From Candidatus Calescibacterium sp. (GTDB taxonomy: Bacteria > Calescibacteriota > Calescibacteriia > Calescibacteriales > Calescibacteriaceae), in the NCBI GenBank assembly GCA_025060505.1, contig JANXBU010000023.1, positions 1-20,862 on the forward strand: a stretch of 20,862 nt of DNA. Reading direction: 5' to 3'. Shown in pieces: positions 7,804 through 19,131 of the stretch. The translations under genes and the position numbers were made by a program. Every line of letters begins with the position of its first letter. Positions within the stretch are counted from its first letter, which is position 1. A model generated the notes under the pieces. It was not told where the DNA came from, did not search any database, and worked only from the letters and a program-made list of their open reading frames with translations.

Positions 7804-8283
7804 ATGAAAGGTGCAGAAAAAGGTAAGCCACAAGATAAAGGCGCAAAAGGTGGTGGTCCAAAAGAAGTAGTTGCAAAATTTAGAATAAAGATTCCGGCTC
7901 AGGAGGCAAATCCTGCTCCACCAGTTGGTCCAGCTCTTGGACAAAGAGGAATAAACATATCTGAATTCTGCAAAAGATTTAACGATGCATCAAAGACATT
8001 CCCAAAAGGTTTGCCAGTCACAGCTCATGTTACGGTATTCAAAGATAGATCTTTTGAGTTTATAATAAAAACTCCGGTAACTTCTGCATTGATTCTAAAA
8101 TATGCCAAGCTTGAAAGTGGTTCAGGAGAAGCTGGAAAGAAGATTGTTGGGAAAATAACTAAAAAGGATGTTGAGGAGATTGCAAAAATAAAGCTTCCAG
8201 ATCTAAATGTGAATTCATTTGAATCTGCATGTAGAATCGTTGAGGGAACAGCAAGAAGTATGGGAATAGAGGTCTCTCAGTAA
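7804..8283 (+). CDS. rplK: 50S ribosomal protein L11
   Basis: L11 binds the GTPase-associated region of 23S rRNA and forms the base of the L7/L12 stalk. Conserved landmarks are ANPAPPVGPALGQRGINISEFCKRFN in the N-terminal domain, DRSFEFIIKTPV in the hinge, and SGSGEAGKKIVGKITKKDVEEIA with the terminal VEGTARSMGIEV in the RNA-binding domain. At 159 residues it is about 15-20 longer than usual because of a Lys/Gly/Pro-rich N-terminal tail (MKGAEKGKPQDKGAKGGG); no alternative start lies between the ATG and the conserved core, so the tail is probably genuine. In most bacteria rplK is followed by rplA and preceded by nusG and secE; here it stands between a transporter and mnmE with neither. The upstream 129 bases are A-rich, with no clear ribosome-binding site. 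Confidence 0.97.
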   Translation: MKGAEKGKPQDKGAKGGGPKEVVAKFRIKIPAQEANPAPPVGPALGQRGINISEFCKRFNDASKTFPKGLPVTAHVTVFKDRSFEFIIKTPVTSALILKYAKLESGSGEAGKKIVGKITKKDVEEIAKIKLPDLNVNSFESACRIVEGTARSMGIEVSQ

Positions 8284-8348
8284 TTTCGTCAAATTTTCAT
8301 ATTCAAGCAAGATGAATAAAAATTAACATATCAACAAGAAAGAATAAT

Positions 8349-9728
8349 GTGTTTGACACAATAGTATCGCCAGCTACCGCGCTTTATCCTTCTGCAATAG
8401 GAATAGTAAGAATATCTGGTAGTAAAACGAAAGATATACTGACTAAAATTACAAGGAAACAGAATTTTAGCCCAAGATTTGCTCATCTAGTTCGGGTATA
8501 CGATGAAGATGGAACACAGTTAGATGAGAGTATTGCAATTTTTTATCCAGAGCCATCGTCTTACACAGGAGAGGATATGGCAGAGATATTTCTGCATGGG
8601 AACCCAGTTATAATAAATCATGTTGTTAGCTTGTGCATAAAAAATGGAGCAAGAATGGCTCAGGAAGGAGAGTTTACAAAAAGAGCATTTTTAAACGGTA
8701 AGCTGTCTTTGGAGAAAGCCGAATCTGTTCTTTCCATAGTCAATTCGTCAACTCTGGCTGGTGTAAAAGCGTCTTTTAAAGTTCTCAAAGGAGAATTTTC
8801 TCGCGTTATTGAAGATATACGTACTGGCATTATAGATGTTCTTTCTGATATAGAGGCTTCGGTGGACTTCCCAGAAGATGTAGACCCTGATATACCAAAA
8901 GAGAAGATTGAAAATAATATCAGATATAATTTGGAGAAGGTGGAGAAAATTTACAGTTCTTGGAAAGGTGCAAAAGTGATGTTAGATGGGGCGGTTTGTG
9001 TTGTAATAGGCAAGCCCAATGCCGGAAAGTCAAGTCTGTTCAACATTCTTGTCGGAGAGTCAAGAGCTATAATATCTCCTTTCCCCGGGACAACTCGTGA
9101 TTACATTGATGCGAGAATAGATATAGGAGGAGTTCTGATAAAGCTTATTGATACAGCGGGAGTAAGAGAAACACCGGATCCCATAGAAAAAGAGGGTATA
9201 AAGAGAGCAATAGAGCTCGCGAAAAAATCAGATATAATTCTGTGTGTCTTTGATAGCTCGTCTGAATTCGATCAAGATGACAAAAAATCTGTTGAGGTCT
9301 CGTTTTTATCAGATGCTCAGTTGATAATTTTTGTTGTAAACAAATCTGATAAGGGAGATGTTCTCAAATACAGAGAAATTCTTGAAAATATTATTCAGAG
9401 TTCTGATGTAAAACACAAAGAAATCGAAATTGTAAATACATCATGTATAGAAGGAAAGGATATAAACAAAGTTCGTGAAATTATGAAGAATTTTGTTATG
9501 CGCGGAGAGAACACAGATTTTTTTGCACTTTCATCAAGGCAGATAGGTATAATTCTTTCTGTTATTGAAAATTTGAGGAGTTCTCTTGAATTTATATCTA
9601 ACTCAGATTACATCGGTAGCGTTCTTAAATTGAGAGAAGCTCTTACAAGCTTAGATGATATAATAGGTCAGGGGAGTTCTCAGAAAGTTATAGATGATAT
9701 ATTCAAAAAGTTCTGTATTGGTAAATGA
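8349..9728 (+). CDS. mnmE: tRNA modification GTPase MnmE
   Basis: MnmE, with MnmG, installs the aminomethyl or carboxymethylaminomethyl group on wobble U34 of several tRNAs. The 459 residues match the family length. The N-terminal formyl-THF-binding domain opens with DTIVSPATALYPSAIGIVRISG. The G domain, inserted into the helical domain, has G1 GKPNAGKS at 221-228, the K-loop/G2 region ISPFPGTTRD near 242-251, G3 DTAG at 268-271 and G4 NKSD at 331-334. The C-terminus keeps the catalytic C-x-G-K motif (CIGK, 456-459). The start is GTG at 8349; an overlapping ATG two bases earlier is out of frame. It lies 65 bases after rplK on the same strand and is probably co-transcribed with it. MnmE in many genomes sits by oxaA/yidC or mnmG, so this pairing is unusual. 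Confidence 0.97.
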   Translation: MFDTIVSPATALYPSAIGIVRISGSKTKDILTKITRKQNFSPRFAHLVRVYDEDGTQLDESIAIFYPEPSSYTGEDMAEIFLHGNPVIINHVVSLCIKNGARMAQEGEFTKRAFLNGKLSLEKAESVLSIVNSSTLAGVKASFKVLKGEFSRVIEDIRTGIIDVLSDIEASVDFPEDVDPDIPKEKIENNIRYNLEKVEKIYSSWKGAKVMLDGAVCVVIGKPNAGKSSLFNILVGESRAIISPFPGTTRDYIDARIDIGGVLIKLIDTAGVRETPDPIEKEGIKRAIELAKKSDIILCVFDSSSEFDQDDKKSVEVSFLSDAQLIIFVVNKSDKGDVLKYREILENIIQSSDVKHKEIEIVNTSCIEGKDINKVREIMKNFVMRGENTDFFALSSRQIGIILSVIENLRSSLEFISNSDYIGSVLKLREALTSLDDIIGQGSSQKVIDDIFKKFCIGK

Positions 9729-9743
9729 TTTATGATGATTTAG

Positions 9744-9763
9744 TTTAATATGCTTTAATATGC
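9744..9763 (+). repeat. Two-copy 10-bp tandem repeat
   Basis: TTTAATATGC occurs twice in direct succession just after the mnmE stop, in the 153-base gap before the convergent cobS end. No function is evident. The rest of the gap shows no clear terminator. Confidence 0.6.
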
Positions 9764-9881
9764 AATGTTGAGCTTTCATTATTTGGATAAAACTCTTGTT
9801 CTGTTTCCCGCGATTACGGAATGGTATGTTGTTTCTTCGGAGGAATTCTTCTTGCAGCGGAGCATTTTGTTACATTTATTT

Positions 9882-10610
9882 TCACTTCCAAGAGTATAGA
9901 GTTAGGAGCCACAAGAGCTCCGAGATTTCGCATATGAATCCGAGTATATCTCCTGTAAATCCTCCCACTTTTTTTATGAAGTATATGGAAAACAGAAAAA
10001 CTACAATGAGTGTCAGTATAGTCTGGTAAAAGTATATAGAAGATATAATAAGAAGTAGTATGGCTGATGTTAGGAAACCTTTTTTTACATTTGATATAAA
10101 AGTGTATCCAAGCCCGTAGTCTTTTGCGCTACGATTGAATACAGAAGGGAAGATAACCATACATATTCTTCCTAAGGAAAAGGAAAAAATGAGAAGTTCT
10201 GGATAATCTGTTACAAGGTTTATGTATAGGAAAAGTTTTAGAAATATATAGATTGAACCAAATAGAACTGCAAATGCTCCGGTATGTGTGTCTTCCATAA
10301 TTTTTAGGATTTCTTCTTTTTTGGTTTTGCCGGAGAGGAAAGCATCTGTTGTATCAAGGAAGCCATCAAAGTGGAAGAAGTTGAAAATAATGTATTGTAT
10401 AACGAGAGTAAGCACCACAGCAATGTCTTCTTTTATTATCAACGAGAAAATTTTGAAACAAAAAAACAAGGCTGTACCTGAAATCAGTGAAAAGAGAGGT
10501 ATATATTTTATAGATTTGGGAAGGAGTCTTTGGAAATCTGTGCCTTTGTATAGGTTTATTCTTGAAAAAAACGAGAAATTAAGGAGAAATGCTCTTATTT
10601 CATCTGACAT
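9882..10610 (-). CDS. cobS: Adenosylcobinamide-GDP ribazoletransferase (cobalamin synthase)
   Basis: CobS is the integral membrane enzyme that joins adenosylcobinamide-GDP and alpha-ribazole (or its phosphate) in the last steps of cobalamin assembly. The 242 residues are mostly hydrophobic, with five to six likely helices. The diagnostic metal-site motif is HFDGFLDTTDAFL (H80, D82, D86, D89), followed by a second motif MEDTHTGAFAV (D107, H109) and the C-terminal GGFTGDILGFICEISE. I chose the ATG at 10610, whose A is also the last base of the rpsB stop (TGATG), over the TTG one codon earlier; such overlap implies translational coupling. No other cob gene is in the window, so the rest of the nucleotide-loop pathway must be elsewhere, or the cell salvages corrinoids. 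No cobalamin riboswitch is visible upstream of rpsB. Confidence 0.92.
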   Translation of the reverse strand: MSDEIRAFLLNFSFFSRINLYKGTDFQRLLPKSIKYIPLFSLISGTALFFCFKIFSLIIKEDIAVVLTLVIQYIIFNFFHFDGFLDTTDAFLSGKTKKEEILKIMEDTHTGAFAVLFGSIYIFLKLFLYINLVTDYPELLIFSFSLGRICMVIFPSVFNRSAKDYGLGYTFISNVKKGFLTSAILLLIISSIYFYQTILTLIVVFLFSIYFIKKVGGFTGDILGFICEISELLWLLTLYSWK

Positions 10611-11410
10611 CAAGTGGTGGCTGGGGCTTCACCGGATTCCACAATCATTCTCTGCTGCTCTACAAATTCCTTTCTCCCAGCCTTTATAGATCTTGAAATA
10701 ACTGAGCAGTAAAATTTTATCGCTCTTATTCCATCGTCATTTCCGGGAAATGGGAATGTTATAGGATCCGGATCGCAGTTTGTGTCAACCGGTGCTATAA
10801 TTGGAACTTTCATTTTTACAGCTTCTGCTATACAGGTTTGTTCCTCCATAATTCCCAGAACAAAAACTGCATCGGGTAGTTTTTTCAGATTTCTTATACC
10901 TTCGTAGTATTTTCCCATTTTTTCCATTATTCTTTTTATACTATTTGCTTCTTTTTTAGTATATAATTTGTATACTTCTCCACTTTGTATCATCTCTACA
11001 TATCTGTTATATCTTTCTATTCCGTTCAGGATTGCCTGAAAATTTGTAAGAGTTCCACCGAGCCATCTTTCTACTATATAGGGCATCTCGCATTCTATGG
11101 CGTAGTTCTTTACTAATTCTTTTCCTATATTTTTTGTTCCAACAAACAGAATCGTTCCACCTTGTGACGCAAGATAGTACGCATACTTGCAGGCTTCTGT
11201 TAACATCTCCTGAGTTTTCTGAACATCTATTATGTGTATTCCGTTCCTTTCACCAAATATGTATGGCTTCATCTTTGGGTTCCATTTTTCTGCATTGTGT
11301 CCAAAGTGAATTCCGTTTTCAAGAATATCTTTTATACTTATGCCCGGATTATAATTTACTTGATCCAAGAATTTGAAGAAGTCATTTTTAAATCTGATTT
11401 GTACTGGCAT
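10610..11410 (-). CDS. rpsB: 30S ribosomal protein S2
   Basis: S2 assembles late on the 30S head/body junction and helps recruit S1. Family landmarks are ILENGIHFGHNAEKWNPKMKPYI, GIHIIDVQKT, GTKNIGKELVKNYA, ERWLGGTLTNF, the PDAVFVLGI strand and PVDTNCDPD near the C-terminus. The 266 residues include about 20 extra N-terminal residues ahead of the usual start region; no ATG occurs between, so the extension is either real or translation begins at a TTG at codon 15. The stop overlaps the cobS ATG by one base. Its normal partner tsf is about 4.6 kb away on the other strand. The gene has no visible Shine-Dalgarno and its start lies 36 bases from the divergent prepilin gene, so its promoter must be very compact or overlap that gene. 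Confidence 0.96.
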   Translation of the reverse strand: MPVQIRFKNDFFKFLDQVNYNPGISIKDILENGIHFGHNAEKWNPKMKPYIFGERNGIHIIDVQKTQEMLTEACKYAYYLASQGGTILFVGTKNIGKELVKNYAIECEMPYIVERWLGGTLTNFQAILNGIERYNRYVEMIQSGEVYKLYTKKEANSIKRIMEKMGKYYEGIRNLKKLPDAVFVLGIMEEQTCIAEAVKMKVPIIAPVDTNCDPDPITFPFPGNDDGIRAIKFYCSVISRSIKAGRKEFVEQQRMIVESGEAPATT

Positions 11411-11446
11411 AATGCATTTATTAGATAATTAATTAAAATAAAAATT

Positions 11447-11830
11447 GTGAAAACACAAAAAGGTTTTACACTTGTAGAAGTTCTTGTTGCAATATGGATA
11501 ATTGGGACTGCGCTTGTAGCTTTGGTTGGACTTAATATAGGAAACATAAAATTTTCAAAAAGTATAGATGAATTATCGCAAGCTATGTTTATACTCTATG
11601 ATGTAAGAATGAGAAGCTATCTGCAAACAAAATACAATACTGAAATTCCACCTATTGAGTATCCACAGGACTACGAAGCAAGTACCGATGTTCTGGACCT
11701 ATCTTCTATGAAAGAATTTGCTATACCATTTCTCTCTGGTGTGAATATACCACCAATACCAATAGCTTTTGTCAAGACACCTTCCGAAAAAAGATTTGAG
11801 TTGTTTGGAGTATCTTATACCAAGAAGTAG
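11447..11830 (+). CDS. Type IV pilin-like / type II pseudopilin-like protein
   Basis: The 127-residue product begins with a short basic leader and the prepilin peptidase site KG|FTLVEVLVAI: cleavage after Gly6 leaves an N-terminal Phe with Glu at +5, followed by a roughly 20-residue hydrophobic helix (WIIGTALVALVGLNI). The 'TLVEVLVAIWI' flavour is closest to minor pseudopilins of the GspI/PilV kind. After about residue 45 the globular part is short and unrecognised, with no cysteine pair. The start is GTG at 11447 without a clear Shine-Dalgarno. It stands alone: upstream is the divergent rpsB and downstream a convergent Nfu gene, so no pilus or secretion operon is visible here. It probably acts as a minor subunit of a pilus or secretion pseudopilus encoded elsewhere; that is inference from the N-terminal motif only. 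Confidence 0.8.
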   Translation: MKTQKGFTLVEVLVAIWIIGTALVALVGLNIGNIKFSKSIDELSQAMFILYDVRMRSYLQTKYNTEIPPIEYPQDYEASTDVLDLSSMKEFAIPFLSGVNIPPIPIAFVKTPSEKRFELFGVSYTKK

Positions 11831-11872
11831 TTGGAGAGTGTCAATTCAATTTTTCAATTTTGTTTTTTCAAT

Positions 11873-12334
11873 TCAAGTTGTTTTTGGGGCGAGTTTGAAT
11901 CCAAAGTCCGGTTCCTTTGGCTCTTCTGCTGGTTCAACTCTTTTGACCCACGGAATAAACTGAGAAAGTATTCTTCTTATTCCAGCTTTCATGGTCACAA
12001 CCGCAGAGGGACAAAGAGCACAAGCTCCGGACATAGAAACTACTACTTCTCCTTTTTCTTGATCTACCTTCACAAGTTTAAGTTCTCCACCGTGAGATTT
12101 TATGTAATCTATGACTTTTCGGTTCAAGACATATTCAACTTCTTCAAACGGATCAGATAGAATTATTACCTCTTTTGCTGTTTTTTGGGCTATTATTTTT
12201 TGTATTTCTGATTTGTCTACGGACTTTGTTCTTAATCCGAAGATTATTTTATTCTGATCTTCTTCTATTTTGTATAGCTTTATATCTTTTTTTTGTTCTT
12301 CTTTGAGTTGCTGAATTATTTCATCTTCAAGCAT
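11873..12334 (-). CDS. NifU C-terminal (Nfu)-domain protein
   Basis: This 153-residue protein has an Nfu-type domain at about 65-130: the helix VLNRKVIDYIKSHGGELKLV, the strand GEVVVSMSGAC, and the cluster-binding pair C105-ALC-P with C108, followed by SAVVTMKAGIRRIL. Nfu proteins carry a 4Fe-4S cluster bridged across a dimer through this CxxC and deliver it to target enzymes. The N-terminal 60 residues are charged and unrecognised; the C-terminal 20 residues (EPAEEPKEPDFGFK) form a Pro/Glu-rich tail. The ATG at 12334 follows the stop of the CxxxCxC gene by nine bases, so the two are surely one transcript. The gene ends 42 bases from the convergent prepilin stop. A role in Fe-S maturation is known for the family; which targets it serves here is unknown. 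Confidence 0.87.
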   Translation of the reverse strand: MLEDEIIQQLKEEQKKDIKLYKIEEDQNKIIFGLRTKSVDKSEIQKIIAQKTAKEVIILSDPFEEVEYVLNRKVIDYIKSHGGELKLVKVDQEKGEVVVSMSGACALCPSAVVTMKAGIRRILSQFIPWVKRVEPAEEPKEPDFGFKLAPKTT

Positions 12335-12343
12335 CAGTCAAAT

Positions 12344-12655
12344 TCAGTTAGTTTCGTTCCACATTTTGAGTATATCTTCAGAAGGTATGTCAGCAAGTCC
12401 TACGACTCTTTTTACTTCTGGGAACTCGCCGGATATTTCTTGGCCTATTATCTCAGCTATTTGATTAGCAGCGCAACCGCAGAATGGTGAGCACCCAACA
12501 CCGTTTCCGAGAGCCAGACCCAGATAAACTGTTCCGGTTCCTTCGTCAAACTTTTTGAGCCAAACTATAACATCCTCAATTTGAGGAGATGCTTTTATTC
12601 TTGGTCTGATGTCCTCCATTATAAATTTTTGTATTTGTTCTCCTATGTTTTTCAT
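12344..12655 (-). CDS. Small CxxxCxC protein, possible Fe-S or metal-handling partner of Nfu
   Basis: I do not recognise this 103-residue protein with certainty. It has an alpha-beta look: helix 5-20, strand EDVIVWLKKF, strand TGTVYLGLALG, then a glycine-rich loop with three close cysteines (C55, C59, C61 in GCSPFCGC), a helix ANQIAEIIGQEISGEF and a final strand KRVVGLADI with a helix after it. That order of strand, Cys-containing turn, helix and strand recalls MIP18/DUF59 and NifU-type folds, both used in Fe-S assembly, but the cysteine spacing is not standard for either. It has the strongest Shine-Dalgarno in the window (AAGGAGGT, seven bases before ATG) and is nine bases upstream of the Nfu gene. 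Partnership in cluster assembly or transfer is inferred from that linkage. Confidence 0.75.
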   Translation of the reverse strand: MKNIGEQIQKFIMEDIRPRIKASPQIEDVIVWLKKFDEGTGTVYLGLALGNGVGCSPFCGCAANQIAEIIGQEISGEFPEVKRVVGLADIPSEDILKMWNETN

Positions 12656-12662
12656 TGATTTT

Positions 12663-12670
12663 ACCTCCTT
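12663..12670 (-). promoter_or_regulatory. Strong Shine-Dalgarno before the CxxxCxC gene
   Basis: On the minus strand AAGGAGGT ends seven bases before the ATG at 12655, nearly full complementarity to the 16S rRNA 3' end. Several other genes here have no visible site, so this gene/Nfu pair is likely well translated. Confidence 0.75.
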
Positions 12671-12696
12671 CCTTTTAAGGTAGAAATTTTTTGATT

Positions 12697-13191
12697 TTAA
12701 AGATATTTTTTCTGCAATTTTTTTCTAACGAATTCATCAAGAATTCTTCTAGATTTCTCGTCGATGTACGTTATTTCTACACCCATACCGGGTAGAACGT
12801 TCGGATCGGTTGGGTCTGCCTTCCATCTGACTACGCCTTCCACAAATATCTCTTCTTCGGTCTCTGGAATAGAAAAATATATTTTCAGATTAGAGCCCGG
12901 TGGCAGAGGATTTGGTGTCCTTATAAACATTCCGCCTCTTGATATGTTCATAGTCCAGTCTACTGCAAAACTTTCTCCTGTTGAATACTTTACTTCTATT
13001 TCTGCTGGAATTCTTTCCTCTCTGCGTTTTTCTTCTGTTTTTATATTTTCTTTGTTTTGTGTTTCCTGTTCTTTTGATTGCTTTGGGTTATTGTTCTCTT
13101 TTTTGTCTTTTAACTTTTTGACTGTTTTGCCTGTACTGTTTATTTTTTCAATTTTGTTCTTTGCTTTATTGTTTTTTTTCTTACTCGGCAT
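12697..13191 (-). CDS. PilZ-domain protein with Lys-rich N-terminal tail
   Basis: The C-terminal 110 residues of this 164-residue protein form a PilZ domain, which usually binds cyclic di-GMP. Both ligand motifs are visible: an RxxxR-type box within KRREERIPAEI (R56, R60) and NISRGG, matching the [D/N]xSxxG box (about 82-87). The domain continues with beta strands MFIRTPNPLPPGSNLKIYFSIP and VEGVVRWK, and ends with a helix SRRILDEFVRKKL. The first 53 residues are low-complexity Lys/Glu/Asn (MPSKKKNNKAKNK), probably disordered. No output domain is fused, so it would act by binding a partner. It lies 40 bases after the unknown gene at 13771 and 41 bases before the CxxxCxC gene. Cyclic di-GMP control of pili or surface behaviour is typical of the family; its target here is not shown. 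Confidence 0.88.
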   Translation of the reverse strand: MPSKKKNNKAKNKIEKINSTGKTVKKLKDKKENNNPKQSKEQETQNKENIKTEEKRREERIPAEIEVKYSTGESFAVDWTMNISRGGMFIRTPNPLPPGSNLKIYFSIPETEEEIFVEGVVRWKADPTDPNVLPGMGVEITYIDEKSRRILDEFVRKKLQKKYL

Positions 13192-13231
13192 ATCTAAAAT
13201 TAATAATACAAATTAATCCTTGAATGTAAAT

Positions 13232-13771
13232 TTATTCATCCTTCTCTTTTTCTTTTCCGCTTTTTTCTTCTGTTATTGGTTTTATTCCAAAAAGTTCTTC
13301 GATCTTTTTATCATTGTTCTTTATACTGAATGACGGAATCACATCATTCTTTATTATTGAAGTTTTCTGTTCTTTCTTGCTTGTGTTTCTATTTCCAGAA
13401 AGCAGTTCAATTATAATGTGATCCCATCTTATATCTTTTGAAAGAATATCTGATGCAGATGTGATTTTGTTGATCAAATTGTTCTGTTTATCTATGTATT
13501 CTTTTAGGGCCGAGTTTACATTTTCAACTATTTGGAATACTTTTTCATAATCTGGGTTGCCGTTTATAATCATAGGAATTATATCTCTTACTGCTCCAAG
13601 TGTTGTATTAAGTATGCTGTTTGTTTCGCTAACGAATGTCTTGAACTCCGAGAAGACATCTCTTACGATGAAAAAATAATCGTCAAGACTTTTTACTTCA
13701 TATATTTTCTCTTCGTTATTACTGCCTTCGTCTTTTTTTTCATCTGAGTCCTTTTTTTTCTTTTTTCCCAT
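13232..13771 (-). CDS. Unknown charged helical protein upstream of PilZ
   Basis: I do not recognise this 179-residue protein. It starts with MGKKKKKDSDEKKDE and ends with SGKEKEKDE, both highly charged, while the centre (about 28-125) is predicted mostly helical with heptad-like hydrophobics (DDYFFIVRDVFSEFKTFV, NSILNTTLGAVRDII, VFQIVENVNSALKEYI). That core resembles coiled-coil or four-helix-bundle partner proteins but matches no family I know. It has no signal peptide, membrane segment or cysteine. It is first in a same-strand run with the PilZ gene 40 bases downstream, and both proteins begin with a similar Lys-rich tail, which suggests shared partners or location. An inverted repeat (7-base arms) lies three bases before its ATG. 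Real-gene confidence rests on length, an in-frame ATG and operon position. Confidence 0.65.
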   Translation of the reverse strand: MGKKKKKDSDEKKDEGSNNEEKIYEVKSLDDYFFIVRDVFSEFKTFVSETNSILNTTLGAVRDIIPMIINGNPDYEKVFQIVENVNSALKEYIDKQNNLINKITSASDILSKDIRWDHIIIELLSGNRNTSKKEQKTSIIKNDVIPSFSIKNNDKKIEELFGIKPITEEKSGKEKEKDE

Positions 13772-13774
13772 TTA

Positions 13775-13802
13775 CTTCAAATTTAGTCATCTATGTTTGA
13801 AG
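13775..13802. repeat. Perfect 7-bp inverted repeat next to a start codon
   Basis: CTTCAAA at 13775-13781 and TTTGAAG at 13796-13802 are exact reverse complements separated by 14 bases; arm centres are 21 bases apart (about two helical turns). It lies three bases upstream of the ATG of the minus-strand unknown gene. It could be an operator or a 5' UTR hairpin; in such AT-rich DNA chance is possible. Confidence 0.4.
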
Positions 13803-13886
13803 ATTATTTTTTTAACAAAATGATACTTTAATAATTATGTATTTTGTATATTTGAAAAACGTCTACTCTCTCTTATTTTCTTAAAA

Positions 13887-13904
13887 TTTGAACAGATATT
13901 CAAA
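13887..13904. repeat. 6-bp inverted repeat upstream of accC
   Basis: TTTGAA and TTCAAA flank a six-base spacer about 50 bases before the accC start. The arm sequence matches the core of the repeat at 13775-13802, in the same divergent intergenic region, so a shared regulator is conceivable but unproven. Confidence 0.3.
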
Positions 13905-13952
13905 AATTCTGTTTTTGGTCTTTGTTTCCGAACAAGTTTTAGTTTCAAGATT

Positions 13953-15311
13953 ATGGAAATAAAAAAGATACTTGTTGCAAACAGAGGAGAGATAGCAAGA
14001 AGAGTTATAAAGTCTGCCAAGAAGCTTGGGAAAAAAGTTGTGGCGGTTTATTCTGAAGCAGATAAAGATCTTCCGTTTGTAAGTGAAGCAGATGAATCGG
14101 TAAATATTGGAGAGCCGCATCCGCTGAAAAGCTATCTTGATATATCAAAAATAATAGAAGCTGCCAAAAAAACAGGAGCAGATGCTATACATCCTGGATA
14201 TGGATTTCTTTCGGAGAGGGAAGATTTTGTAAAAGCCTGTGAAGATAACAACATAACATTCATAGGTCCAACGGCAAAAAGCATGGAGATAATGGGAGAT
14301 AAAGCTACAGCAAGAAGATTTGTGAGGTCAATAAACATACCTATTCCACCTGGAACAGAGATTATTGACGATGTTGAAGTCTTGAAAATTGAAGCAAGAA
14401 AGCTCGGGTATCCAGTTTTACTCAAAGCAGCAGCTGGTGGTGGAGGGATTGGAATGGTGAGGGTAGAGAAGGAAGATGAGCTTTCAAAGGCATATGAGCA
14501 AGCTCGTTCAAGGGCGAAATCTGCTTTCGGAGATGAAAGAGTATATATGGAAAAATATCTTCAATCACCGCACCACATAGAAATTCAGGTTCTTGGAGAT
14601 GGAAAAGGCGGAATAACAACCTTCCCAGAAAGAGAATGCTCGGTTCAGAGGAGACACCAGAAAGTTATAGAGGAATCTCCTTCTACTTTTGTAGATGAAG
14701 AACTCCGTAAAAAGATAAGAGATTTTGCCAGAAAAATTATGTCTGAGCTCAAATACAGAAATGCAGGAACAGTAGAGTTTGTTGTTGATAGAGACAAAAA
14801 CATATACTTTCTTGAAGTAAATACCAGATTGCAAGTTGAGCATCCAATAACAGAGGCGATAACAGGCTTTGATCTTGTAGAGTGGCAAATAAAGATAGCT
14901 GAGGGAGAAAATCTTCCTGATGAAAGAGATATAAGAATCAACGGTTGGGGTATTGAATGTAGAATATATGCTGAAGATCCTGTGACTTTTCTTCCTTCTC
15001 CGGGAAAGATAACGGAGCTTGTTGAACCAAAGTGCACAAAGTTTTTCTGGGACTCAGAGAATATAAGACTTGATATAGGCTATATAGGAGGAAACAGTAT
15101 AACTCCTTTTTATGACCCACTTATTGCAAAACTTGTTGCAAGAGGGAATAATAGATCGGAAGCTATACAAAACATGCTTCAAGCTCTTTCGGATATAAAA
15201 ATAGAAGGAATAAAAACAAATATAAAGTTCCTTCTGGAAGCAGTTTCTTCTGATTTATTCAAAAATGGTGGATATGATACTCACTTTATTCAGAATCTAA
15301 GAAAAAAATAA
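13953..15311 (+). CDS. accC: Biotin carboxylase subunit (acetyl-CoA, propionyl-CoA or pyruvate carboxylase type)
   Basis: This enzyme uses ATP and bicarbonate to carboxylate biotin on a carrier protein. The 452 residues have the full order: N-terminal domain KILVANRGEIARRVI and HPGYGFLSE (80-88), the ATP-grasp domain with K117, K158, the glycine loop AGGGGIGM (161-168), ERECSVQRRHQKVIEE (K237), E275, E288/N290, R292 and the VEHPITE catalytic loop, then the C-terminal biotin carboxylase domain (GWGIECRIYAEDP, YDPLIAKLV). The glycine loop has Ile where many AccC have Arg (GGGGRGM); this variant occurs in some propionyl-CoA and pyruvate carboxylase subunits, so the carboxylated acceptor is open. 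No biotin carrier (accB) or carboxyltransferase lies adjacent. No Shine-Dalgarno is evident before the ATG. A sORF, rplJ and tsf follow closely on the same strand. Confidence 0.94.
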   Translation: MEIKKILVANRGEIARRVIKSAKKLGKKVVAVYSEADKDLPFVSEADESVNIGEPHPLKSYLDISKIIEAAKKTGADAIHPGYGFLSEREDFVKACEDNNITFIGPTAKSMEIMGDKATARRFVRSINIPIPPGTEIIDDVEVLKIEARKLGYPVLLKAAAGGGGIGMVRVEKEDELSKAYEQARSRAKSAFGDERVYMEKYLQSPHHIEIQVLGDGKGGITTFPERECSVQRRHQKVIEESPSTFVDEELRKKIRDFARKIMSELKYRNAGTVEFVVDRDKNIYFLEVNTRLQVEHPITEAITGFDLVEWQIKIAEGENLPDERDIRINGWGIECRIYAEDPVTFLPSPGKITELVEPKCTKFFWDSENIRLDIGYIGGNSITPFYDPLIAKLVARGNNRSEAIQNMLQALSDIKIEGIKTNIKFLLEAVSSDLFKNGGYDTHFIQNLRKK

Positions 15312-15346
15312 GTTTTTTATTGACTGGCATATAAAAGGAGATCCTA

Positions 15347-15454
15347 GTGAAGGATGTTTCAAAGTTTTATAAATCACAAAAATCTGATTTTTACAAAAAT
15401 TTTGGGGCTTTGTTTATCATTTTGATAATTTTTATTTTCTGCGGAGGAGAATAA
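15347..15454 (+). CDS. Short membrane sORF (35 codons) coupled to rplJ
   Basis: A GTG start at 15347 is preceded by AGGAG (15336-15340) at six bases spacing. The 35-residue product has a charged N-terminal half (MKDVSKFYKSQKSDFYK) and one hydrophobic segment (FGALFIILIIFIFC) ending CGGE. Its TAA stop at 15452-15454 is followed by a single base and then the rplJ ATG, and the rplJ Shine-Dalgarno (GGAGGAG) lies inside its last codons, so translation of the two is almost certainly coupled. The position resembles that of secE near ribosomal stalk genes, and the charged-then-single-helix plan is similar, but it is far too short and lacks SecE's conserved motifs, so I do not call it secE. It could be a small membrane protein or a leader controlling rplJ. 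Confidence 0.5.
   Translation: MKDVSKFYKSQKSDFYKNFGALFIILIIFIFCGGE
15443..15449 (+). promoter_or_regulatory. Shine-Dalgarno of rplJ within the upstream sORF
   Basis: GGAGGAG sits six bases before the rplJ ATG and inside the last codons of the 35-codon sORF, so ribosomes reading the sORF would pass over or expose it. Confidence 0.7.
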
Positions 15455-15455
15455 C

Positions 15456-15953
15456 ATGATAACAAAAAAAGGGAAGGAATGGAAGAAAAAGAAGTTTCAA
15501 GCTTTTGAGGATTTGGTTAAGAGCAACAAGTATTTCTTATTCTTCAATTTCAATGAGTTGGATATACCAGCATTTGTAGCAATCAAAAAGAAGATGCGAG
15601 AGTTGGAAAATCAGGTGATGATAGCAAAGAATGTTTTTATCAAGATGCTTATGAATGTGAAATTTGAAGAACCAATTGCTGTTGTAGCTGTTAAGAAAGA
15701 TCCAATAAAAACTCTCAAAGAGCTTATAAAGGTATTGGATAAGGAGAAGGTCAGGGGCTCACTTATAGGCAACAGATTTTATAGCAAAGAAGCAACGCTT
15801 GAGCTTTCAAAGTCGCCAGATTCAGACGAGCTCAGAGGCATGGTTTTGGGGAGCCTTTACGGTATGCTCTACAGACTAGTTTCTTCTTTGCAGTGGTATC
15901 CGGGAGCTCTTATAAATATTTTGAACACCAAATCAAAACAGGGACAGCAATAA
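15456..15953 (+). CDS. rplJ: 50S ribosomal protein L10
   Basis: L10 anchors L7/L12 dimers to the ribosomal stalk. The 165-residue sequence is diverged but keeps the family plan: an N-terminal helix KKKFQAFEDLVKSNKYFLFFNFNEL, a central RNA-binding region (AIKKKMRELENQVMIAKNVFIKMLM), the EEPIAVVAVKKDPIKTLKEL strand-helix, the GNRFYSKEATLELSKSPDSDELRGMVLGSLYG segment, and a terminal helix that would bind L7/L12 (LVSSLQWYPGALINILNTK). It has a strong Shine-Dalgarno and a start one base after the sORF stop. The usual downstream rplL is absent; tsf follows 25 bases later. The classic rplJ autoregulatory leader, in which L10 binds its own mRNA, was not recognisable here. The call rests on overall pattern more than single residues. 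Confidence 0.9.
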   Translation: MITKKGKEWKKKKFQAFEDLVKSNKYFLFFNFNELDIPAFVAIKKKMRELENQVMIAKNVFIKMLMNVKFEEPIAVVAVKKDPIKTLKELIKVLDKEKVRGSLIGNRFYSKEATLELSKSPDSDELRGMVLGSLYGMLYRLVSSLQWYPGALINILNTKSKQGQQ

Positions 15954-15960
15954 ATTAAAC

Positions 15961-15969
15961 GGAAGGGAG
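15961..15969 (+). promoter_or_regulatory. Shine-Dalgarno of tsf
   Basis: GGAAGGGAG ends nine bases before the tsf ATG and lies in the 25-base gap after rplJ. Confidence 0.6.
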
Positions 15970-15978
15970 AATTTAGCT

Positions 15979-16581
15979 ATGGCAGACAAAGACATAATGT
16001 CAAAAATAAAGGAACTGAAAGAGGCAACTGGAGCCGGAGTTGCTGAGTGCAAGGCTGCTATTGAAGAGGCAAACGGTGATTTTGAGAAAGCTATTGAGAT
16101 TCTGAGAAAAAAAGGTATCGCAAAAGCAGAAAAAAGGCTCAGCAGAACAGCAAAAGAGGGTATAGTCGAATCCTATATACACATAGGAGGTAGAATAGGT
16201 GTTCTTGTTGAGCTCAACTGTGAAACAGATTTCGTTGCGAGAAATGATGAGTTCAAAAAGTTGGCGCATGAAATAGCTATGCAGATTGCCGCTATGTCTC
16301 CAAGATGGGTCAAAAGGGAGGATGTTCCAGAAGAAGTTCTCAAAAAAGAATATGAAATATATTTCGAACAGAGTAAATCAGAAGGAAAACCCGATAACAT
16401 TGCGGACAAAATAGCAAAAGGAAAAATTGAGAAGTTCTTTGAAGAAAACTGCTTGTATGAGCAAACTTGGATAAGAGACGGAAAAACGAAAATTCAAGAT
16501 TTTATCAAACTCGCGATATCAAAGTTCGGAGAAAATATTTCTGTAAGAAGATTTTCAAGATTTGAGATTGGTAAAGATTAA
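15979..16581 (+). CDS. tsf: Translation elongation factor Ts
   Basis: EF-Ts is the GDP-exchange factor for EF-Tu. Residues 5-47 are the UBA-like N-terminal domain (IKELKEATGAGVAECKAAIEEANGDFEKAIEILRKKGI), and TDFVARN at 83-89 is the core motif that displaces the EF-Tu magnesium. The 200 residues correspond to the short form with a single core subdomain, as in Thermus-like and many thermophile proteins, versus about 280 in E. coli. The region after 130 ends with EENCLYEQTWIRDGKTKIQDF, the conserved dimer/core strand block. In most bacteria tsf follows rpsB; here it follows rplJ by 25 bases while rpsB is on the other strand about 4.6 kb away. A T-rich hairpin lies just after the stop. Confidence 0.97.
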   Translation: MADKDIMSKIKELKEATGAGVAECKAAIEEANGDFEKAIEILRKKGIAKAEKRLSRTAKEGIVESYIHIGGRIGVLVELNCETDFVARNDEFKKLAHEIAMQIAAMSPRWVKREDVPEEVLKKEYEIYFEQSKSEGKPDNIADKIAKGKIEKFFEENCLYEQTWIRDGKTKIQDFIKLAISKFGENISVRRFSRFEIGKD

Positions 16582-18126: not shown

Positions 18127-19131
18127 ATGAGATATGACTCTGCAATAAAAACAACATTTGAGAAAGTGGCTCTTGGTGTTCTGAGAGTTCTTGGATACGA
18201 AGTTGTTGAGATAAAGCCGATACCGCAAGAGATGCAGGTTGGTAAGCTTGTAGCCGATTTTCTTGCAATCGTCAAACTCAAAGATGGAACCGAGTTCATT
18301 CTGCATGTGGAGTTTCAGACAAGAAACGATCCAGATATGCCAAAGAGGATGTTAAGGTATTTTTCCATTATATTTTCAGGGCACAATCTTCCAATAAGGC
18401 AGATTGTGATTTACTTGGGAAATGAAGAGCTAACAATGAGCAACAAAATAGACATGAAAAGTGGTGGTACATCTATTTCTTATGAATATGAAATAATAGA
18501 TCTCAAAGAAGTTCAGGCCGAAAAATTTTTGGAGTCAGAGGCTCCAGATGTGTATTTACTTGCAATACTCGGTAGAACTGAAGACATATCAGAAGTTGTG
18601 AGAAAGATAATATCAAGGCTCAGAGAAAGTTTTGAGAAAAGGGAGATAAGCAAACATGATTTGTTAGAATATATAAATAGGTTAGGAGTATTTGCAGAGC
18701 TCAGAGACATAAGAGAAGATTTGAGGAAGGAGGTACAAAAAGCAGTGATAGATATAGACATAACTAAAACTTGGCTCTACCAAGAAGGACTTGAGAAAGG
18801 AATAAAAGAGGGATTAGAAAAAGGAATGCAAAGAGGGATACAAAAAGGGATACAAAAAGGGATACAGCAGGGAAGAAAAGAAGGAATAAGAGAAGGTATG
18901 AAGAAAGGATTAGAGAAGGCGTTGAAGGAAACTATACTCTCTGTTGTAAAGTTCAAGTTTGGTAGAGCATCTTCGTTAATTAGAAAAGGTGTGATGCGAA
19001 TTGATGATATTGATAAGCTCAGATCTTTGAGAGATGAGGCATTGAGGGCAAGAACTCTGAAGGAATTTGAGAAGAAACTCAGATCTACAAATCATATCAA
19101 ATTAAAGTATAAAAATGTCAAAAGGTTATGA
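18127..19131 (+). CDS. Rpn/PD-(D/E)XK nuclease transposase-like protein with Gly-rich repeat
   Basis: The 334-residue product matches the Rpn (recombination-promoting nuclease) / putative transposase group of PD-(D/E)XK proteins. The N-terminal nuclease fold shows D44 in LVADFLAI and the E-x-Q pair E62/Q64 in LHVEFQTRND, the acidic metal site typical of this group. A helical middle part (about 120-215) leads to a tetrapeptide repeat at 218-265 of the form xxxG (GLEKGIKEGLEKGMQRG and so on), and the C-terminus (about 267-325) resembles DUF4351: VVKFKFGR followed by IDDIDKLRSLRDEALRARTLKEFEKKL. Such genes spread widely in some genomes without terminal inverted repeats; none is seen here. In E. 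coli, Rpn proteins nick DNA and stimulate RecA-independent recombination. The last 14 bases overlap the convergent phosphatase gene. Confidence 0.82.
   Translation: MRYDSAIKTTFEKVALGVLRVLGYEVVEIKPIPQEMQVGKLVADFLAIVKLKDGTEFILHVEFQTRNDPDMPKRMLRYFSIIFSGHNLPIRQIVIYLGNEELTMSNKIDMKSGGTSISYEYEIIDLKEVQAEKFLESEAPDVYLLAILGRTEDISEVVRKIISRLRESFEKREISKHDLLEYINRLGVFAELRDIREDLRKEVQKAVIDIDITKTWLYQEGLEKGIKEGLEKGMQRGIQKGIQKGIQQGRKEGIREGMKKGLEKALKETILSVVKFKFGRASSLIRKGVMRIDDIDKLRSLRDEALRARTLKEFEKKLRSTNHIKLKYKNVKRL
18835..18870 (+). repeat. 12-bp tandem repeat inside the Rpn-like gene
   Basis: GGGATACAAAAA occurs twice in succession and a third, altered copy (GGGATACAGCAG) follows. Each unit encodes a GIQK-type tetrapeptide, so slippage would lengthen or shorten the protein in frame. 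Confidence 0.8.

Follow-up and report, generated by a model that had tools for sequence, protein, structure and literature searches.

The break-up of two ribosomal operons, rplKAJL and rpsB-tsf, with the joining of their members to new partners, is very probably an ancestral, family-wide trait of the bacteria grouped with Ca. Calescibacterium. In this family rplJ is paired with tsf, rpsB with cobS and, with one exception, rplK with mnmE. Calescibacteriota are little-known uncultured bacteria, found mostly in hot springs. The genus Ca. Calescibacterium is assigned to this candidate phylum in the NCBI taxonomy; Calescamantes, or EM19, is the older name of the phylum (PMC4791363).

The DNA analyzed here, hereafter the window, is 20,862 nucleotides long and corresponds to one whole contig (C31) of a 2.28-Mb genome, G000, assembled in 115 contigs and about 86% complete by estimate. 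By kinship assignment, G000 is a member of the same family as Ca. Calescibacterium nevadense (G004). The family sample consists of G000 and four relatives (G001-G004), which include Ca. C. nevadense, Bacterium HR19 and two uncultured metagenome-assembled genomes; it is small, with five genomes from one family, of estimated completeness 82-86%. One end of the window carries a truncated T4-type major capsid gene (Gp23; positions 2-742, + strand; Pfam E 8e-30, PHROG major head protein E 2e-23), which is either a prophage remnant or an assembly join. An Rpn/YhgA-like putative transposase gene is found at 18127-19131 (+ strand; PHROG transposase E 4e-12), and a stretch 39% identical to it lies near nusG on contig C71 of the same genome. 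The genes relevant to the present analysis fall within a 9-kb stretch:

7804-8283, + strand: rplK, ribosomal protein L11 (PF00298/PF03946; TIGR01632, E 8e-55)
8349-9728, + strand: mnmE (TIGR00450), starting 65 bases past the end of rplK
9882-10613, - strand: cobS, adenosylcobinamide-GDP ribazoletransferase (PF02654, E 7e-42), overlapping the end of rpsB
10610-11410, - strand: rpsB, ribosomal protein S2 (PF00318; TIGR01011, E 1e-81)
13953-15311, + strand: accC, biotin carboxylase, upstream of rplJ in G000 only
15456-15953, + strand: rplJ, divergent ribosomal protein L10 (PF00466, E 3.5e-7, a weak match; NCBIfam NF000955, E 2e-13, under the model cut-off)
15979-16581, + strand: tsf, elongation factor Ts (TIGR00116, E 2e-59), 25 bases past rplJ, with a Shine-Dalgarno (SD) sequence before its start

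Pfam and NCBIfam matches place the pairs rplK-mnmE, rpsB-cobS and rplJ-tsf exactly where the initial annotation had located them. The stretch is best described as three separate units rather than one broken operon, since rpsB-cobS lies on the opposite strand to the other two pairs, and accC, nifU, pilZ and other genes intervene. At its N terminus the L11 protein carries a lysine-rich extension, about 20 residues long (7804-7863), of which relatives have shorter versions.

As reported in the initial annotation, rplA, rplL and nusG are missing from the window; each was located on another contig of G000. A solitary rplA is found at C19:27874, flanked by a FtsW/RodA-like membrane gene and an aminotransferase gene (names assigned by eye). 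The rplL gene, at C27:18227, is followed by rpoB and rpoC, and its adjacency to rpoB is also seen in two relatives (G002 and G003). The nusG gene, at C71:19843, lies downstream of tuf and secE and is followed by a waaA-like gene. The genes rpsL-rpsG-fusA are not found after rpoC in G000; fusA heads instead, in the three genomes inspected, a truncated S10 operon, fusA-rpsJ-rplC-rplD-rplW-rplB, which stops after rplB and is followed by a different gene in each genome (pepA, trmD and sufC, named by eye).

Compared with the nusG-rplKAJL-rpoBC cluster of most bacteria, the family thus has the same genes, cut at nusG/rplK, rplK/rplA, rplA/rplJ and rplJ/rplL. The resulting pieces are tuf..secE-nusG, rplK, rplA, rplJ and rplL-rpoBC (for which three genomes were inspected), and only rplL-rpoBC and tuf..secE-nusG keep the expected order. 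The four genes rplK, rplA, rplJ and rplL occupy separate loci in G000 and are also apart in G001-G004. Similarly, both genes of the rpsB-tsf operon of most bacteria are present in single copy, but unlinked. L11, S2, L10 and EF-Ts have one match each in G000, and no second copy of rplK, rpsB, rplJ or tsf was found in this genome, about 86% complete; rplK, rpsB and rplJ are single in all five genomes of the family, none of which contains a rplKAJL or rpsB-tsf operon. The dismantling of two highly conserved operons, originally proposed from the window, therefore holds across the family.

The new pairs are largely shared. In all five genomes tsf comes directly after rplJ (18-25 bases apart in those with an unambiguous start) and cobS after rpsB, while none has rpsB-tsf; mnmE follows rplK in four (G000-G003), and in Ca. 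C. nevadense its place is taken by a nudix-type gene. None of the other genes of the window was detected in the relatives' flanks of rplK, rpsB and rplJ-tsf, covering about 10 kb per side where the contig was long enough; accC, in particular, was not found in the rplJ flanks of any of the four relatives. The pairs thus persist across three genera while their surroundings are scrambled, which argues for selection on the pairs themselves. Judging from the common strand, the 18-25 base gap and the SD before tsf, the two genes rplJ and tsf most likely form an operon.

Outside the family the arrangement is markedly different. L10 is followed by L12 in all 30 sampled loci, and L1 lies beside L10 in 27 of them; of 76 EF-Ts loci taken from named genomes, 74 have S2 next to EF-Ts. 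The two exceptions (L087 and L093) belong to Thermotogales and have EF-Ts with no S2 nearby, so that the unlinking of rpsB and tsf is not unique to Calescibacteriota; they differ from the family, however, in that no rplJ-tsf pair was found there. In a set of 192 genomes, L10 and EF-Ts were within 14 kb of each other in none of the 126 outside genomes among the matches listed. With rplJ-tsf in five of five genomes inside and none of 126 outside, the earlier view of the new pairs as a strong lineage marker is well supported. Operon loss and unlinked rpsB and tsf are known phenomena, while the splitting of rplJ from rplL and the pairing of rplJ with tsf appear unusual. Among open-access papers, none was found that deals with rplJ next to tsf or with the order of ribosomal genes in Calescibacteriota, which is weak evidence of novelty.

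An origin of the pairs by local rearrangement had been put forward in the initial annotation. In such a scenario, two operons lying near each other in an ancestor would have been broken and re-paired by inversions within about 9 kb. The three pairs do lie within 8.8 kb in G000, and the a priori chance of three given units being so close is about 4e-5. The relatives, however, share the pairs without sharing their proximity, rplK, rpsB and rplJ-tsf being on different contigs or, for rpsB and rplJ in G002, about 90 kb apart; no other gene of the window is shared in the flanks, and the classical linkages are already lost in every relative. The closeness is therefore specific to G000 and, as far as can be seen, neither conserved nor ancestral. 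As the estimated 25 or so ribosomal fragments can form about 2300 trios, one close trio is unremarkable (the probability of some such trio is of order 0.1), and the nearness of the pairs in G000 is most likely due to chance. The proposed local origin is not borne out, and we regard it as very unlikely. A reciprocal exchange between rplJ/rplL and rpsB/tsf was considered separately and rejected: it predicts rpsB beside rplL, a neighborhood seen neither at the rpsB loci nor at the rplL loci inspected.

Chimeric junctions, or duplicates coexisting with intact operons elsewhere, could also simulate a break-up. The G000 assembly is fragmented and incomplete, and a phage capsid gene sits at one end of the window. 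The junctions rplK-mnmE, rpsB-cobS and rplJ-tsf, on the other hand, recur identically in up to four independent assemblies, and the single copies in all five genomes speak against duplicates; an artefact of either kind is hardly credible. Shared pairs, single copies and the lack of intact operons in the family all indicate that the fragmentation is ancestral, rather than a product of assembly error or duplication.

L10 diverges much faster than its neighbor EF-Ts, and its matches to L10 models are weak. Its identity between G000 and the relatives is 43-52%, to be compared with 77-85% for EF-Ts, about 80% for L11 and about 68-70% for S2. By eye, several residues are missing from the L10 proteins of the family in the region of the usual GPTA segment.

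Start signals differ between leading and inner genes. A well-placed SD was found in none of the five family genomes for rplK and rpsB, and in all five for tsf and rplL; the only candidate before rplK is a poorly spaced AGGA in Ca. C. nevadense. An SD is also lacking before rplJ in four of five genomes, before fusA in the three inspected and before rpoB in the two inspected, while rpsJ, rplC, rplW and rplB have one in all genomes inspected. Four genomes have a TANNNT hexamer 7-8 bases upstream of rplK, and four have one 10-11 bases upstream of rpsB. Most rplK and rpsB starts of the family match the leaderless type, with no SD and a -10 element 6-11 bases before the ATG, either fully or almost; in G000 the -10 matches of both genes are imperfect. 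In the same genome rplJ, rplA and rplL carry an SD, and are therefore probably not leaderless.

The tendency extends well beyond these genes. Over 532 kb of G000-G004 loci, unit-leading genes without SD show a TANNNT peak 6-9 bases before the ATG (67 observed, 21 expected, P 4e-16, a somewhat flattering value because the interval was picked after viewing the profile). Every one of the five genomes shows the enrichment, by a factor of 2.3 to 4.6, and it is weakest in G000. Loci of Clostridia, Synergistales and Bacteroidales, handled in the same way, feature no peak (about 1-fold), the start codon in this comparison being simply the first ATG. Patescibacteria loci (L116-L128, L098, L102, L104, L105 and L107) show a similar excess of -10-like hexamers near the ATG. 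In statistical terms, the -10-like hexamer close to the ATG of genes without SD is, in the family, a signature of putatively leaderless mRNA. A similar organization, with a -10 element right before the start and no SD, is described for leaderless expression in Deinococcus-Thermus, a different phylum (PMC12340547, PMC3160421); no open-access paper was found linking leaderless expression with Calescamantes. Rfam leaders, the L10 leader included, were detected neither near rplK, rplA, rplL and rpsB nor in the window, and by eye nothing upstream of rplJ is conserved across genera. Scans for sigma-70 promoters and terminators performed no better than on shuffled sequences.

The L10-L12 complex feeding back on rplJ-rplL is a textbook example of ribosomal regulation. 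mRNA leaders are the sites of action in other bacteria: L1 binds one located ahead of rplK and/or rplA, S2 binds that of rpsB, and L10(L12)4 targets that of rplJL (PMC10931766). In the Ca. Calescibacterium family each ribosomal piece would be transcribed from its own promoter, and leaderless rplK and rpsB mRNAs would offer no 5' leader for L1 or S2 to bind and repress, leaving no room for this type of feedback. Ribosome components would then be balanced by the strength of promoters, the stability of mRNAs or the degradation of excess protein. On the basis of sequence, the loss of leader feedback by L1 or S2 has a little short of an even chance of being correct, and stoichiometric control in the family may be altered, as the initial annotation had surmised, a view to which the leaderless-type starts lend indirect support.

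A fuller scenario is offered tentatively, and we consider it possible though doubtful: Calescibacteriota may have dropped leader feedback, with the leading ribosomal genes leaderless, L10 and L12 on separate transcripts, L10 tied to EF-Ts and evolving fast once freed from L12. In the opposite reading rplJ-tsf would be an adjacency devoid of function, kept because too little time has elapsed, and regulation would be exerted by conventional leaders that went unrecognised. The SD and the room for a leader before rplJ in G000, where a leader of this type is possible, are in line with it; the survival of the pairs across three genera amid scrambled surroundings is not, and makes it unlikely.

The pair rplJ-rplL is among the most stable in bacteria. 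A family that retains the proteins without their linkage indicates that this linkage is not essential, and can serve as a natural experiment on the part that operon structure and mRNA leaders play in balancing the ribosome. The conserved new pairs are in addition handy markers for placing contigs in the Calescibacteriota lineage. For the bacteria themselves, fragmentation of the operons may have done away with the RNA switches that normally keep the parts of the ribosome in balance.
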